A DNA stretch of 64,000 nt from Allocoprobacillus halotolerans (GTDB lineage: Bacteria; Bacillota_I; Bacilli_A; Erysipelotrichales; Coprobacillaceae). A program made the position numbers and the translations under genes. Under the pieces are notes generated by a model. That model was not told the origin of the DNA. It ran no database searches and was given only the letters and a program-made list of their open reading frames with translations. Of this stretch, positions 16,947 through 50,283 are shown one piece after another (position 1 is the stretch's first letter; every line of letters starts with the position of its first letter). Location of the stretch: assembly GCF_024399475.1 (NCBI RefSeq), contig NZ_CP101620.1:849608-913607 (forward strand), written 5' to 3'.

Positions 16947-18842
16947 ATCGAATAGGGGCTAAGAATTAATATCTTTCGCCCCTTTCACAACACCATGCAT
17001 AGGGTCCCCTACACGGCGTTTCATAAGTTTATAGAATTGTAATAGTCTAGTGCACTGATAAACCCAAAGCTTTTCAGTCTTTCGTTTGTCAGTGTTCTAG
17101 AGAGTATAAAGCTATTGGCTATATGCCAGTAACCTTTTCTTGTATTTGCCCATTCCCATGCCTTTTTCCTGTTTATTCCTAACTTTTGTAGATTTTTATA
17201 TCTCGTCCTTACCAGTTTCCATCTCTTCCAGTATATCATTCGTATTCTTCGTCTTAACCATAAGTCAACTTTACCAAGATACACTTTCATATCGGCTACC
17301 CTGTAATAGTTTATCCATCCCGTCATATAGAGTTTTAATTCTTGGCCTAATTGTTTACTACTGACAGGTCTGTTTCTTTTTGTGATTCCCTTGATTCTTC
17401 TTTTCATCTTTTCTCTTGATTTCTTATGAACAGTGATTCGTACGTTACCACTCTTCTCTATATAAAATCCAAATCCTAGAAATTTTATATCAGTAATATA
17501 GGCTACTTTTGTTTTCTCCTGGTTGACTTTAACGAATAACTTCTCTTCAAGATACCTCCTCACTGTTTCCTTGACTCTCATTGCACTTCTTTTACTTTTG
17601 AATAGTATGACACAGTCATCTGCATATCTTACATATCTATTGCCTCTTCTTTCCATTTCTTTATCAAGTTCATTAAGATAGACATTTGATAGTAATGGAC
17701 TTAGTGGTCCTCCTTGAGGTACGCCTTTAGTCGTTTCTTCGAATTTATGCTTTACTACGACTCCTGCATTGAGATATTTATGTATGAGTGATATGACTCT
17801 TCCATCCTTAATAGTTTGTGACAGTATCTGTATAAGCCTTGAATGATTGACTGTATCAAAGTATTTCTCCAAGTCCAAGTCTACTGTGTATCGATATCCT
17901 TCATTGGCATAGTCTACGACTCTTCTTACTGCTTGATGAGCATTTCTTCGAGGTCTAAATCCATAACTGTTTTCACTGAATAGTGGCTCAAAGATAGGCG
18001 TAAGTATTTGCACTATCGCTTGTTGAATGACCCTGTCAGTCACAGTTGGAATTCCTAGTCCTCTTTTCTTTCCATTATCTTTTGGTATTTCTACTCTTTT
18101 AACGGCTTGTGGACTATAGTGTCCCTCCATGATGAGTTTCTTTAGATAAGACCAGTGCTGTGCGAAATGCGTACGAACTTCTGCGACTTGCATTTTATCT
18201 ACACCACCACTTCCCTTATTGCTCACAACCCTTTGGATTGCCTTTTCTATATTGGCATCTTCTACGATTGTTTCAAGTAACTTCTCATGTATTACAAATC
18301 TATTGGTGTTCTTCGTATGCGATATCTCTTGTTTTGATATAGGATACACTTCTCCATTATTGTCGTATTCCGTACTATCTTCATAGAGTAAGCCTAATGA
18401 TAGTTGACAGTATCCAATTTTATCCTGAGTATCTTTCATTTCCAGTTCACCTCCTTATGTTCGGTCCTTCGCTAGATAACCATTACAGTTATCATCATCA
18501 CTACTATGACCTCGGCTGACTTCCTAGGACAAACATTTCCACCATGATTACATTTTCATCATGTCCCTAGGACCTCCCACGGTAAGACATAACACTTTCA
18601 TCCCATGTACCCACTATCTTTACACTGCTTATTCCGTCGTACTATTGGACTTTGATTTGTCATGCAATCTCATCCAATAAGCATATGCCTTAAATAGTTC
18701 GTATTCCTTGGGTCAGGATTTTGTCTCCGACTTCCTTCAGTTCTCACCTTACGATGGATACCTTGTCTTTGACTAGTGGTTGGTAGTACGAAACCCCCAC
18801 AGTGGACTTTCACCACCAAGTTTTATGCCATGCATGGCACAC
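16947..18842 (-). mobile_element. Group II intron with maturase, about 1.9 kb
   Basis: On the minus strand the likely 5' end is GTGTGCC at 18842, fitting the GUGYG rule. A structured leader of about 400 bases follows (including GGTGGTGAAAGTCCACTG), then the maturase gene. At the end come a domain V-like hairpin (AACGCCGTGTAGGGGACCC, paired with TGGTGTTG) and a domain VI-like stem ending CTATTCGAT near 16947. The 5' end lies a few bases after the hairpin CCCGGGTC-TT-GACCCGGG, the right end of the adjoining IS200-type element. Insertion next to a hairpin is typical of class C introns, but I have not proved the class. Confidence 0.8.
17021..18439 (-). CDS. ltrA: Group II intron reverse transcriptase/maturase
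   Basis: A 472-residue protein with the reverse transcriptase blocks in order: KRGLGIPTVTDRVIQQAI, the palm motif NRYVRYADDCVILFKS with catalytic YADD, and GFGFYIEKSG. A maturase (X) domain follows, with the C-terminal group II maturase motif LKLYMTGWINYYRVADM. No HNH endonuclease domain follows, so mobility would rely on other priming. It is intact. The start is ATG 18439 with AAGGAGGTGAACTGG upstream. The product helps splicing of its own intron and copies it into DNA targets. Confidence 0.95.
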   Translation of the reverse strand: MKDTQDKIGYCQLSLGLLYEDSTEYDNNGEVYPISKQEISHTKNTNRFVIHEKLLETIVEDANIEKAIQRVVSNKGSGGVDKMQVAEVRTHFAQHWSYLKKLIMEGHYSPQAVKRVEIPKDNGKKRGLGIPTVTDRVIQQAIVQILTPIFEPLFSENSYGFRPRRNAHQAVRRVVDYANEGYRYTVDLDLEKYFDTVNHSRLIQILSQTIKDGRVISLIHKYLNAGVVVKHKFEETTKGVPQGGPLSPLLSNVYLNELDKEMERRGNRYVRYADDCVILFKSKRSAMRVKETVRRYLEEKLFVKVNQEKTKVAYITDIKFLGFGFYIEKSGNVRITVHKKSREKMKRRIKGITKRNRPVSSKQLGQELKLYMTGWINYYRVADMKVYLGKVDLWLRRRIRMIYWKRWKLVRTRYKNLQKLGINRKKAWEWANTRKGYWHIANSFILSRTLTNERLKSFGFISALDYYNSINL

Positions 18843-45924: not shown

Positions 45925-45950
45925 AAAAAGTACATTTCCATGTACTCTAA
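45925..45950 (-). terminator. Terminator of corA
   Basis: AGAGTACAT-GGAA-ATGTACT followed by TTTTTTC on the minus strand, just past the stop. Confidence 0.85.
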
Positions 45951-46894
45951 TGAAACATATCTTTTTTCATGAAGATAAGTGTCGCAATACCACAAGCAAC
46001 TAAAGCAATGAGTGTTGGTACCCACCAAACTGGTCCAGGTAACCCAGAAACATTCATACCATAAAAGCTGAAAACAATATTTGGAATGGCCATCACTATT
46101 GTAATAACTGTTAAAACTTTCATAACAATATTTAAGTTATTAGAAATCACAGAAGCAAAAGCATCCATTGTTCCAGATAAAATATTTGAATAAATATTAC
46201 ACATTTCAATTGCTTGATGAATTTCTACAAGAACATCTTCTAATAAATCTTGATCGTCTTCATATAGCTTAATTAATTTTCCACGCATAATTTTATTTAA
46301 AGTGATTTCATCAGTTTTTAATGATGTTGAAAAATAGACTAAAGATTTTTCTAATCCTAGCATCTGAATTAATTCTTTATTTTGCATTGATTTATGTAAT
46401 TTATGTTCTGTTAGTGATGACAAACGATCAATTTGACGTAAATAAATAAGATATCTTTGTGATATTCTTAGTAAAAGTTTCAATAAGAATCTCGTTTTCA
46501 TTTCAGTATGAATACCTTTAACTTTTCCTGTTGCCATATCTTCAATATTTAAATTCTCATATAATGAAATTGTAATAATATAACCTTTCATCAAAACAAT
46601 ACCTAATGGTAATGTTGTATATTGTAAAGTCATTTTATCGTACTTACCTTCCGTTTCTTCAGCACTAGGATAATCGACAATAACTAATGTTTGATTATAA
46701 TCATCATCAAAATCAATATGTGAACTTTCTTCTTCATCTAAAGATGCTTGTACAAATTCAGGAACAATCCCTAAATCTTGTATTAAAAACTGTTTTTCTT
46801 CTTCAGTAGGGGAAATCACATTAATCCAGCATCCTGTTTCTAATGTTTCAATCTTTTTTGTTTCTGTTCCAAAAGTTTTGTAAAATTCTATCAT
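45947..46894 (-). CDS. corA: CorA-family magnesium transporter
   Basis: A 315-residue member of the CorA/MIT family. A long cytoplasmic alpha/beta domain (residues 1-250) ends in the stalk helix. Two C-terminal membrane helices carry the selectivity motif GMN in VFSFYGMNVSGLPGP. The C-terminus is positively charged (FMKKDMFH). It takes up Mg2+, or Co2+/Ni2+ in some relatives. AGGAGGAT lies before ATG 46894 but can be sequestered by an upstream anti-Shine-Dalgarno, and a leader ORF ends 15 bases before the start; see the leader peptide and attenuator entries. Confidence 0.93.
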   Translation of the reverse strand: MIEFYKTFGTETKKIETLETGCWINVISPTEEEKQFLIQDLGIVPEFVQASLDEEESSHIDFDDDYNQTLVIVDYPSAEETEGKYDKMTLQYTTLPLGIVLMKGYIITISLYENLNIEDMATGKVKGIHTEMKTRFLLKLLLRISQRYLIYLRQIDRLSSLTEHKLHKSMQNKELIQMLGLEKSLVYFSTSLKTDEITLNKIMRGKLIKLYEDDQDLLEDVLVEIHQAIEMCNIYSNILSGTMDAFASVISNNLNIVMKVLTVITIVMAIPNIVFSFYGMNVSGLPGPVWWVPTLIALVACGIATLIFMKKDMFH

Positions 46895-46898
46895 TGTT

Positions 46899-46945
46899 AT
46901 CCTCCTATTCTATAACAGGAGAATTTTTATTATGCCTCCTGTTAT
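46899..46945 (-). promoter_or_regulatory. Alternative hairpins controlling the corA ribosome site
   Basis: Helix 1: ATAACAGGAG (46936-46945, within the leader ORF) pairs perfectly with CTCCTGTTAT (46912-46921), loop 14. Helix 2: ATTCTCCT (46917-46924) pairs with AGGAGGAT (46899-46906), the corA ribosome site, with one G-U. The shared CTCCT strand makes the helices exclusive. Helix 1 frees the corA site and helix 2 hides it. Confidence 0.65.
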
Positions 46946-46993
46946 GTTATGTTTTGTATTGAAATTCGTTTCTTCATCCGGCTCCGGAGACAT
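46910..46993 (-). CDS. Leader peptide upstream of corA, 27 residues (candidate Mg2+ sensor)
   Basis: ATG 46993 is preceded by GAAGGTG at good spacing. The peptide begins MSPEPDEETN and ends GGIIKILLL with stop TAG at 46910-46912. The alternating Pro and acidic residues right after the start recall MgtL of enterobacteria (MEPDPTP) and other sequences known to destabilise the translating ribosome when Mg2+ is low. The ORF covers the 5' strand of helix 1 and ends within the 3' strand. An early drop-off would let helix 1 form and expose corA; full translation would favour helix 2. The function is inferred; the reading frame, motif and pairing are seen directly. Confidence 0.6.
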   Translation of the reverse strand: MSPEPDEETNFNTKHNITGGIIKILLL

Positions 46994-47010
46994 AATAACA
47001 CCTTCTTTCT

Positions 47011-47024
47011 TTCCTTTGCCATTA
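47011..47024 (-). promoter_or_regulatory. Likely promoter (extended -10) of the corA leader
   Basis: Minus strand TGTTATAATGG: TG-n-TATAAT extended -10, about 25-30 bases before the leader ATG. The -35 region is weak. Confidence 0.5.
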
Positions 47025-47079
47025 TAACACAAAATATTTGATAGAAAAGCCTTTAAAATGTAATTTTTTTGTTTTTTGT

Positions 47080-47118
47080 AAAAAAGGTTTAAATTGAAAG
47101 ATACTTTCAATTTAAACC
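47080..47118 (-). terminator. Strong terminator of the ATP-grasp operon
   Basis: A 15-bp perfect stem, GGTTTAAATTGAAAG, loop TAT, then its complement, followed by TTTTTT on the minus strand. Confidence 0.95.
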
Positions 47119-49102: not shown

Positions 49103-50283
49103 CTATCCTAAAACATATTGGACAAATTCATCCACTTGTTCCATATTTTCAAAACGTGCAGTATAAGTAAAGTTACCCATTGCACCACTTAAAATATCAG
49201 GCATTCTTTCACACATAACTAAATCAAAATGATATTTTGATACAACTTCTTCATGACTGTGACTATATGTAATACCATCTCTTCTTCCGCAATATACACA
49301 ATGGTATGGACGTTGATGATCATATTCACTATATCCTTGTGTAACCATATCTGCATAAATTTGGTAAATATCTATGTTATTGGCAAAATTCATCATATCT
49401 GGTGTATAACCACCTGGTGTACGTAAATTAACTTCTAAACCAACAATATCTCCCTTTTGCCCTAAACCAGGCTTATCTTCCAATAATCTAAAAATTCCAT
49501 GTGGAAACATCTTCCAGCGGTGTAGAAAGCTTTCACACAAGCTTGCCCAGCCATTTTAAGATCATAAGGAATTTCTCTTAATGAGTAATAATGCATGCTG
49601 CTAACATCATTAACCACATCCATAATAGGATTAGGAAAAACATGCGAAGTTTCAAATAAAATATCTTTTTGGAGGTTCGCAATACCATCATATGAAATAA
49701 TAAGTCCATTTACAAATTCTTCCATAATATATTGAGTCAAATGGTCTTCCTGATAAAATTGTTCTAATTCATCTTGATTAGAAATCTTATAAGTTTTAGC
49801 AGCCCCAACGCCATTATCTGGTTTAACTACAACTGGATAGCCAACTTCTTCAATAAATTTCAAACCTTCTTCTAAATTTGTGATCAAATGATAACGTGCA
49901 GTTTTCACTCCAGCTTCCTCATAAAATTTCTTCATTTTAGACTTACATTTAATATCTTCAATATGGTTAGTATGAATACCAGTTGTAATATTAAAATCAG
50001 TACGTAGTTTCGCATCTTGTTCTAACCAATATTCATTATTTGACTCTAGCCAATCGATATGTCCATAATGAAAAATAAAATATCCCATAGCTTTAACCAT
50101 TTCATCATAGTTTTCCATCGAATATACTTGATAATAATCATCAATAGAATTTTTTAATTCATCGCTTAATTGATCATAAGGTGTATCAGCAATTGCTAAA
50201 ACAGTAACTCCATTTGCTTTTAAGCGATTACAAAATTGATAAAAATTTTTCGGAAAACTTGGTGATATATATACAAAATTCAT
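49103..50283 (-). CDS. ATP-grasp ligase-like protein (first copy of the operon), one-base frameshift
   Basis: The frames 49462-50283 and 49103-49540 make one 393-residue protein. One T is missing from the T5 run near 49487; restored, it reads CFHMEFFRLLEDKPGLGQKG. Domains match the downstream paralogue: MNFVYISPSFPKNFYQFCNR, GYPVVVKPDNGVGAAKTYK, QYIMEEFVNGL, GDIVGLEVNLRTPGGYTPD. The promoter with TGTTATAAT lies just after the rRNA terminator. The two ligases are similar along their whole length but clearly diverged, so they probably use different substrates or act in sequence. Confidence 0.85.

Follow-up and report, generated by a model that had tools for sequence, protein, structure and literature searches.

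Sensing of Mg2+ through leader peptides with acidic residues and proline has been shown in Salmonella and E. coli (PMC8092293, PMC11282234). The nearest precedent for the locus described here is the mgtQ-mgtB leader of Salmonella, for which Choi et al. (2021, PMC8092293) established the layout through mutations and reporter assays. A short upstream open reading frame (uORF) with early acidic codons precedes a Mg2+ transporter gene (PMC8092293), the RNA pairings 1:2 and 3:4 alternate with 2:3, the 3:4 helix hides the ribosome-binding site of the transporter gene, and a proline codon lies within stem 1; in all these respects the corA leader reported below appears alike. Ribosome drop-off that matters at low Mg2+ is caused in E. 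coli by the EPDP motif of MgtL (PMC11282234, PMC11552253), and MgtL acts on mgtA via Rho-dependent transcription termination (PMC11552253, PMC11282234). CorL, a uORF located 5' of corA in E. coli and Salmonella, is Rho-dependent as well, has few Pro and acidic residues, and uses a UUG start in E. coli (PMC11552253); its translation is inversely related to corA. The M-box (RF00380) also controls Mg2+ transporter genes in Firmicutes, but unlike the corA leader it binds Mg2+ directly and has no uORF. Gram-positive bacteria further possess the erm and cat translational attenuators, in which a stalled leader ribosome shifts hairpins and frees the downstream ribosome site, but these differ from the corA leader in their drug-dependent stalling peptides and in targeting resistance genes.

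The window, a stretch of 64,000 nucleotides from Allocoprobacillus halotolerans that was analyzed as a whole, contains a corA gene preceded by a leader ORF and the following elements:

45947..46894, minus strand: corA, encoding a CorA-family Mg2+ channel of 315 aa (PF01544, E=3.9e-46; GMN signature)
46899..46909, minus strand: segment 4, AAUAGGAGGAU, containing the corA Shine-Dalgarno (SD) sequence AGGAGG at 46906-46901 (sequence, folding)
46912..46924, minus strand: segment 3, AUUCUCCUGUUAU, proposed to pair with segment 2 when corA is on and with segment 4 when it is off
46927..46945, minus strand: segment 2, AUAACAGGAGGCAUAAUAA, in which 46939-46927 pairs with segment 1 and 46945-46936 with segment 3
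46910..46993, minus strand: leader ORF, 27 aa and a stop, MSPEPDEETNFNTKHNITGGIIKILLL (sequence and ORF list; N-terminus kept in 40 parsed leaders)
46986..46998, minus strand: segment 1, UUAUUAUGUCUCC, the leader start region, partner of segment 2 (13 bp in the predicted fold)
46999..47005, minus strand: leader ribosome site GAAGGTG, about 6 nt 5' of the leader start (sequence)
47021..47026, minus strand: -10 box TATAAT of the leader/corA promoter, with TG one base upstream, hence an extended -10 (sequence)
47086..47118, minus strand: intrinsic-terminator-like hairpin 3' of the upstream ATP-grasp gene (terminator scan)

The leader runs from an ATG at 46993-46991 to a TAG at 46912-46910, which confirms the original prediction of a 27-codon ORF that has a ribosome site of its own and ends 15 nt upstream of the corA ATG (46894), and the MSPEPDEE opening ascribed to it is present in the translation. 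GGTG and the ATG of the leader are invariant among 31 aligned leaders. A probable promoter with an extended -10 (TGTTATAAT) lies just upstream; in 39 of 40 leaders a -10 box was found 23-31 nt 5' of the AUG, with TGn in 38, the fortieth locus being truncated where its contig stops. This promoter has no good -35 box and was not listed by the promoter scan of the window. The leader seems to head a transcript of its own, given the terminator-like hairpin 3' of the preceding ATP-grasp gene, whereas mgtQ lies inside an operon. A second copy of the ATP-grasp gene (49103-50283, minus strand) appears split into two overlapping frames of 273 and 145 aa, probably by a frameshift. The CorA protein carries the GMN signature as SFYGMNVSG and is 92-97% identical to same-genus CorA proteins.

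Both pairings on which the original prediction was built are present. The perfect 10 bp helix (2:3) is formed by ATAACAGGAG (46945-46936) and CTCCTGTTAT (46921-46912), although both of its strands, and not only one as had been stated, lie inside the ORF; the partner strand can instead pair exclusively with the corA ribosome site (3:4), AUUCUCCUGUU (46924-46914) with AAUAGGAGGAU (46909-46899), which includes the corA SD. What that switch model lacked is a third helix (1:2) connecting the leader start with segment 2, in which UUAUUAUGUCUCC (46998-46986) pairs with GGAGGCAUAAUAA (46939-46927) over 13 bp with one G-U. Its addition to 2:3 and 3:4 gives a layout of four segments, in which 1:2 and 3:4 together hide the corA site and the alternative, 2:3, leaves it free. 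The minimum-energy fold of the region (-31.6 kcal/mol, z=-3.1, none of 200 shuffles as stable in RNA folding) comprises the 1:2 helix and the corA ribosome site inside a hairpin, and does not include the 2:3 helix.

For the conservation analysis, leaders were collected from CorA relatives and genome searches and then with a covariance model, R1, which gave strong scores in 41 of 316 genomes of the order Erysipelotrichales, one copy each, and no strong matches outside the order in samples of the class (395) and the phylum (392). In all 38 parsed covariance-model matches the leader is located directly 5' of corA, with one copy per genome. The genera with a leader before corA include Massilimicrobiota, Thomasclavelia, Merdibacter, Longicatena, Traorella, Amedibacillus, Faecalicoccus, Faecalitalea, Holdemanella and others, and the conservation spans at least 17 genera with compensatory changes; the ORF and all three helices, whose absence from close relatives would have refuted the original prediction, thus recur across genera. 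Two weak model matches elsewhere in the same genome (E 0.23 and 0.46) were not convincing. The weak matches outside the order that were checked were situated inside or 5' of unrelated genes (G325, G709, G771) or had no downstream gene (G568), and the BLAST matches L097, L099, L102, L105, L107 and L108 were chance matches before other genes, or leaderless.

Covariation was assessed in an alignment of 31 leaders built from anchored blocks with N as padding, as MAFFT alignment of whole leaders misaligned segment 4. For the 2:3 helix, 98.6% of cells are paired, five of seven pairs are changed on both sides and 25 cells are double-changed; the corresponding values for 1:2 are 86.8%, six of 12 counted pairs and 20 cells, and for each of these helices none of 500 shuffles reached the covariation score. 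The 3:4 helix is 90.8% paired with little covariation of its own (10 of 500 shuffles), because the SD itself cannot vary much, so that the compensatory changes anticipated for both of the originally predicted helices are many in 2:3 but include few independent ones in 3:4. As anchoring leans towards structure, a swap test of helix partners was added, using 17 leaders, one per genus or nearly so. True partners paired better than those from other genera (p=0.00005 for 1:2, 0.00005 for 2:3 and 0.0004 for 3:4; p=0.06 to 0.72 for non-helix controls), with the reservations that permutation tests remove shared ancestry only in part and that segment 1 of one leader (G257), located at the end of a contig, was wrongly delimited, an error that weakens the result rather than favouring it. 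Segments 1, 2 and 3 have changed together in the leaders beginning MSLDSDG/MSLDADG and MSSDP.

Selection also appears to act on the start of the peptide. The entropies at the three positions of codon 4 (0.34/0.47/1.55) and codon 5 (0.34/0.17/1.54), which lie outside the main 1:2 helix, indicate hardly any variation at the first two bases and free variation at the third. These codons are therefore kept at the amino-acid level, in agreement with the expectation that early Pro/Asp/Glu codons would be conserved in relatives. Asp, Glu and Pro make up 55% of residues 2-8 vs 6% of residues 9-14, the opposite of Lys and Arg (2% vs 21%), and Asp or Glu occurs within residues 4-7 in every parsed leader; an apparent exception (G103, MSCLQNP) was due to a wrong start, the true leader being MSPEPESP. 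Pro3 overlaps with segment 1, and pairing may be the reason for its retention. The C-terminal part of the peptide drifts in sequence, stop position and even frame, and two leaders, of 16 aa (G036) and 12 aa (L041), terminate upstream of segment 2, at distances of 46 and 43 nt from corA. The third-position freedom at codons 4-5 together with the C-terminal drift points to selection on the peptide start and the RNA, not on the whole peptide.

State folding was used to follow the corA ribosome site in 40 leaders, with all RNA as far as 15 nt beyond codon 5 masked as a crude ribosome footprint and energies at 37 C and standard salt. The median probability of an unpaired corA SD rose from 0.003 in free RNA, in which the leader AUG is almost always paired too, to 0.31 with a ribosome on codon 5, an increase seen in 39 of the 40 leaders; for the window leader it rose from 0.00 to 0.50. 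With segment 2 covered or scrambled, the medians were 0.003 and 0.008, respectively. Almost no switch was predicted for a few leaders, from Holdemanella (G234/G235) and Faecalitalea (G225/G226). As the site opens with a ribosome on codon 5 and remains closed on covering or scrambling of segment 2, a ribosome that is held at, or repeatedly lost from, the acidic/proline codons would turn corA on. In the proposed mechanism, 1:2 and 3:4 are predicted to form without a ribosome, hiding the start of the leader as well as the corA ribosome site; the 1:2 helix implies that OFF is the default and that leader initiation is needed for ON. An initiating ribosome would open 1:2. At low Mg2+, Pro/Asp/Glu codons 3-7 would slow the ribosome or cause it to fall off, segment 1 would often be covered with segment 2 free, and 2:3 would form and allow translation of corA; at normal Mg2+ the ribosome would proceed and clear or cover segment 2, 3:4 would form and corA would be off. 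The direction of this switch (ribosome held or lost early, corA on) follows from the anatomy and is the same as in the tested Salmonella mgtQ-mgtB. Concerning the earlier proposal that early drop-off exposes corA and full translation hides it, the opening of the corA site is reproduced in silico, but the drop-off itself is carried over, by presumption, to Erysipelotrichales ribosomes from the effect of acidic residues measured in E. coli and Salmonella.

Conservation, compensatory changes, peptide-level selection on the early Asp/Glu/Pro codons and state folding together give strong support to a leader-peptide switch that acts on the corA ribosome site. The features shared with mgtQ-mgtB are a uORF with its own SD, mutually exclusive helices and early acidic codons selected as peptide and, in silico, a 3:4 helix that hides the transporter ribosome site and a 2:3 helix that frees it. 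However, mgtQ precedes the P-type transporter gene mgtB in Salmonella, whereas the present leader precedes corA in another phylum and transporter family; mgtQ has 8 aa, too short for homology, compared with 12-31 aa here; and the corA leaders have a conserved P-[E/D]-P motif and a segment 1 that covers the leader's own start codon. The resemblance to the MgtL motif EPDP noted in the original prediction is real (PEPD/PEPE here, likewise early and before a Mg2+ transporter gene), but mgtQ, the nearer precedent, was not named, and MgtL differs in that the alternatives here act on a ribosome site. No evidence was found for a common origin of this corA leader and CorL.

The leader is probably a translational attenuator that ties corA translation to ribosome passage through the first leader codons, and its most likely role is the sensing of low Mg2+ in the cytoplasm. 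The same attenuator could conceivably answer to another signal, such as charged tRNA-Pro, EF-P activity or any slowing of early elongation including that by antibiotics, as anatomy by itself names no signal, P3 and P5 are frequent in the leaders, and Salmonella mgtP, known here through a citation in PMC8092293, responds to tRNA-Pro. This is nevertheless rather unlikely, since proline appears dispensable where acidic residues are kept (MSLDSDG and MSLDADG lack Pro in the first seven residues and MSSDP has one), every parsed leader retains Asp or Glu within residues 4-7, RNA pairing accounts in part for P3, and the target is always corA. Plain translational coupling, in which the leader ribosome melts 3:4 near its stop and re-initiates at corA with no sensing, would fit the hidden corA site and the stops located 10-29 nt before corA in most leaders, near enough for re-initiation; yet it is improbable given the drifting stops, frames and C-terminal sequences and the two leaders that end before segment 2, and it leaves the conserved 1:2 and 2:3 pairings and the Asp/Glu-Pro codons unexplained.

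A metal- or ligand-binding riboswitch with an incidental ORF is more improbable still, although a conserved structured leader 5' of a metal channel is what it would look like and the gammaproteobacterial corA motif RNA was once a listed riboswitch candidate (PMC6429828). No Rfam 15 family matches the leader at gathering score (the window matches are rRNA and a group II intron only, the latter as domains D1-D4 at 18464-18758, minus strand), no conserved unpaired core exists apart from the ribosome sites, and the invariant leader SD and AUG, with codons 4-5 varying mostly at third positions, are coding-like. As judged from the comparison of sequences, leader and switch are not a chance feature, since they are conserved across the order, and a conserved chance sequence without a regulatory role has almost no probability in view of its retention, with compensatory changes, in so many genera.

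For the Mg2+-sensing attenuator, we infer Mg2+ as the most economical choice of signal because the target is always corA, MgtE and a detected M-box are absent here, and uORFs of this composition are enriched before mgtE. No MgtE was found in this genome at E<=1e-10, and no M-box was detected in the window at gathering score or in the whole genome with stricter filters; the M-box was found in some relatives. Among 98 relatives, MgtE is missing in 16 of 23 leader-bearing genomes vs nine of 75 others (Fisher p=2e-7, inflated by shared ancestry). The leader-bearing corA and mgtE thus tend to exclude each other, and Massilimicrobiota, Longicatena and others are apparently without MgtE.

In the mgtE upstream regions of Erysipelotrichales (L206-L292), uORFs with at least three Asp, Glu or Pro in residues 2-9 were present before 24 of 90 mgtE genes vs three of 156 control genes (p=4e-9, with relatives that are not independent and control genes drawn from corA neighbourhoods), and 1% of shuffled regions had such a uORF. 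They are of several unrelated kinds, including MFYKDNDVPEPS... (overlapping the mgtE start), MIVDPLSGGNNDNSEDHLPP..., MDEIPKS... and MDDKPGG... (examples in L224, L228, L210, L258, L232, L253, L235, L252 and L245); in the MFYKDNDVPEP... type the overlap between uORF stop and mgtE start measures 25-38 nt, and several mgtE leaders are predicted to fold with the mgtE ribosome site paired. In another Bacilli family, one genome (G497; L163/L171) has an mgtE uORF, MIIPEDDYYSYKHIKN... from L171 1369, with possible 1:2, 2:3 and 3:4 pairings; this weak match (MIIPEDDYY, E=0.0019) is no more than a lead, as state folding leaves the mgtE site unchanged despite the alternative pairings and relatives have no leader. 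The chances appear even that low-Mg2+ sensing by slowing or drop-off of ribosomes on acidic/proline leaders is a general habit of Erysipelotrichales, acting on CorA and MgtE, two transporter families unrelated to each other, with several unrelated leader types and with an origin independent of the enterobacterial MgtL/MgtQ.

Outside the order, corA genes 65-76% identical to that of the window and without the leader occur in Lachnospiraceae (L043, L047, L074) and Collinsella/Enorma (L062, L064, L066), a finding that suggests horizontal transfer of the gene without the switch. No leader was present at the examined corA copies of Lachnospiraceae (Scybalocola, Catenibacillus), Collinsella/Enorma and Acholeplasmatales. 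One contig (L079), from a record titled Candidatus Blautia avicola, carries at its start the 3' portion of a leader resembling those of Massilimicrobiota and the opening codons of corA (19 residues, 95% identical) and is possibly mis-binned.

No earlier description for Erysipelotrichales, or of corA or mgtE uORFs in Firmicutes, was found in the literature searched (subscription papers outside its scope), in line with the original prediction, which knew of none in this bacterial group. The corA leader is a probable mgtQ-like switch, placed in a phylum new to this kind of control and acting on another transporter family, and the Salmonella/E. coli way of Mg2+ sensing appears to have arisen separately in Gram-positive bacteria. 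If true, Mg2+ sensing via ribosome stability would be a convergent solution and not an enterobacterial oddity, and the natural leader variants would offer a test set for N-terminal residues that destabilize ribosomes. The leader switch would represent an alternative to the M-box riboswitch in Firmicutes, and suggests how Massilimicrobiota, apparently without MgtE, could regulate a main Mg2+ importer.
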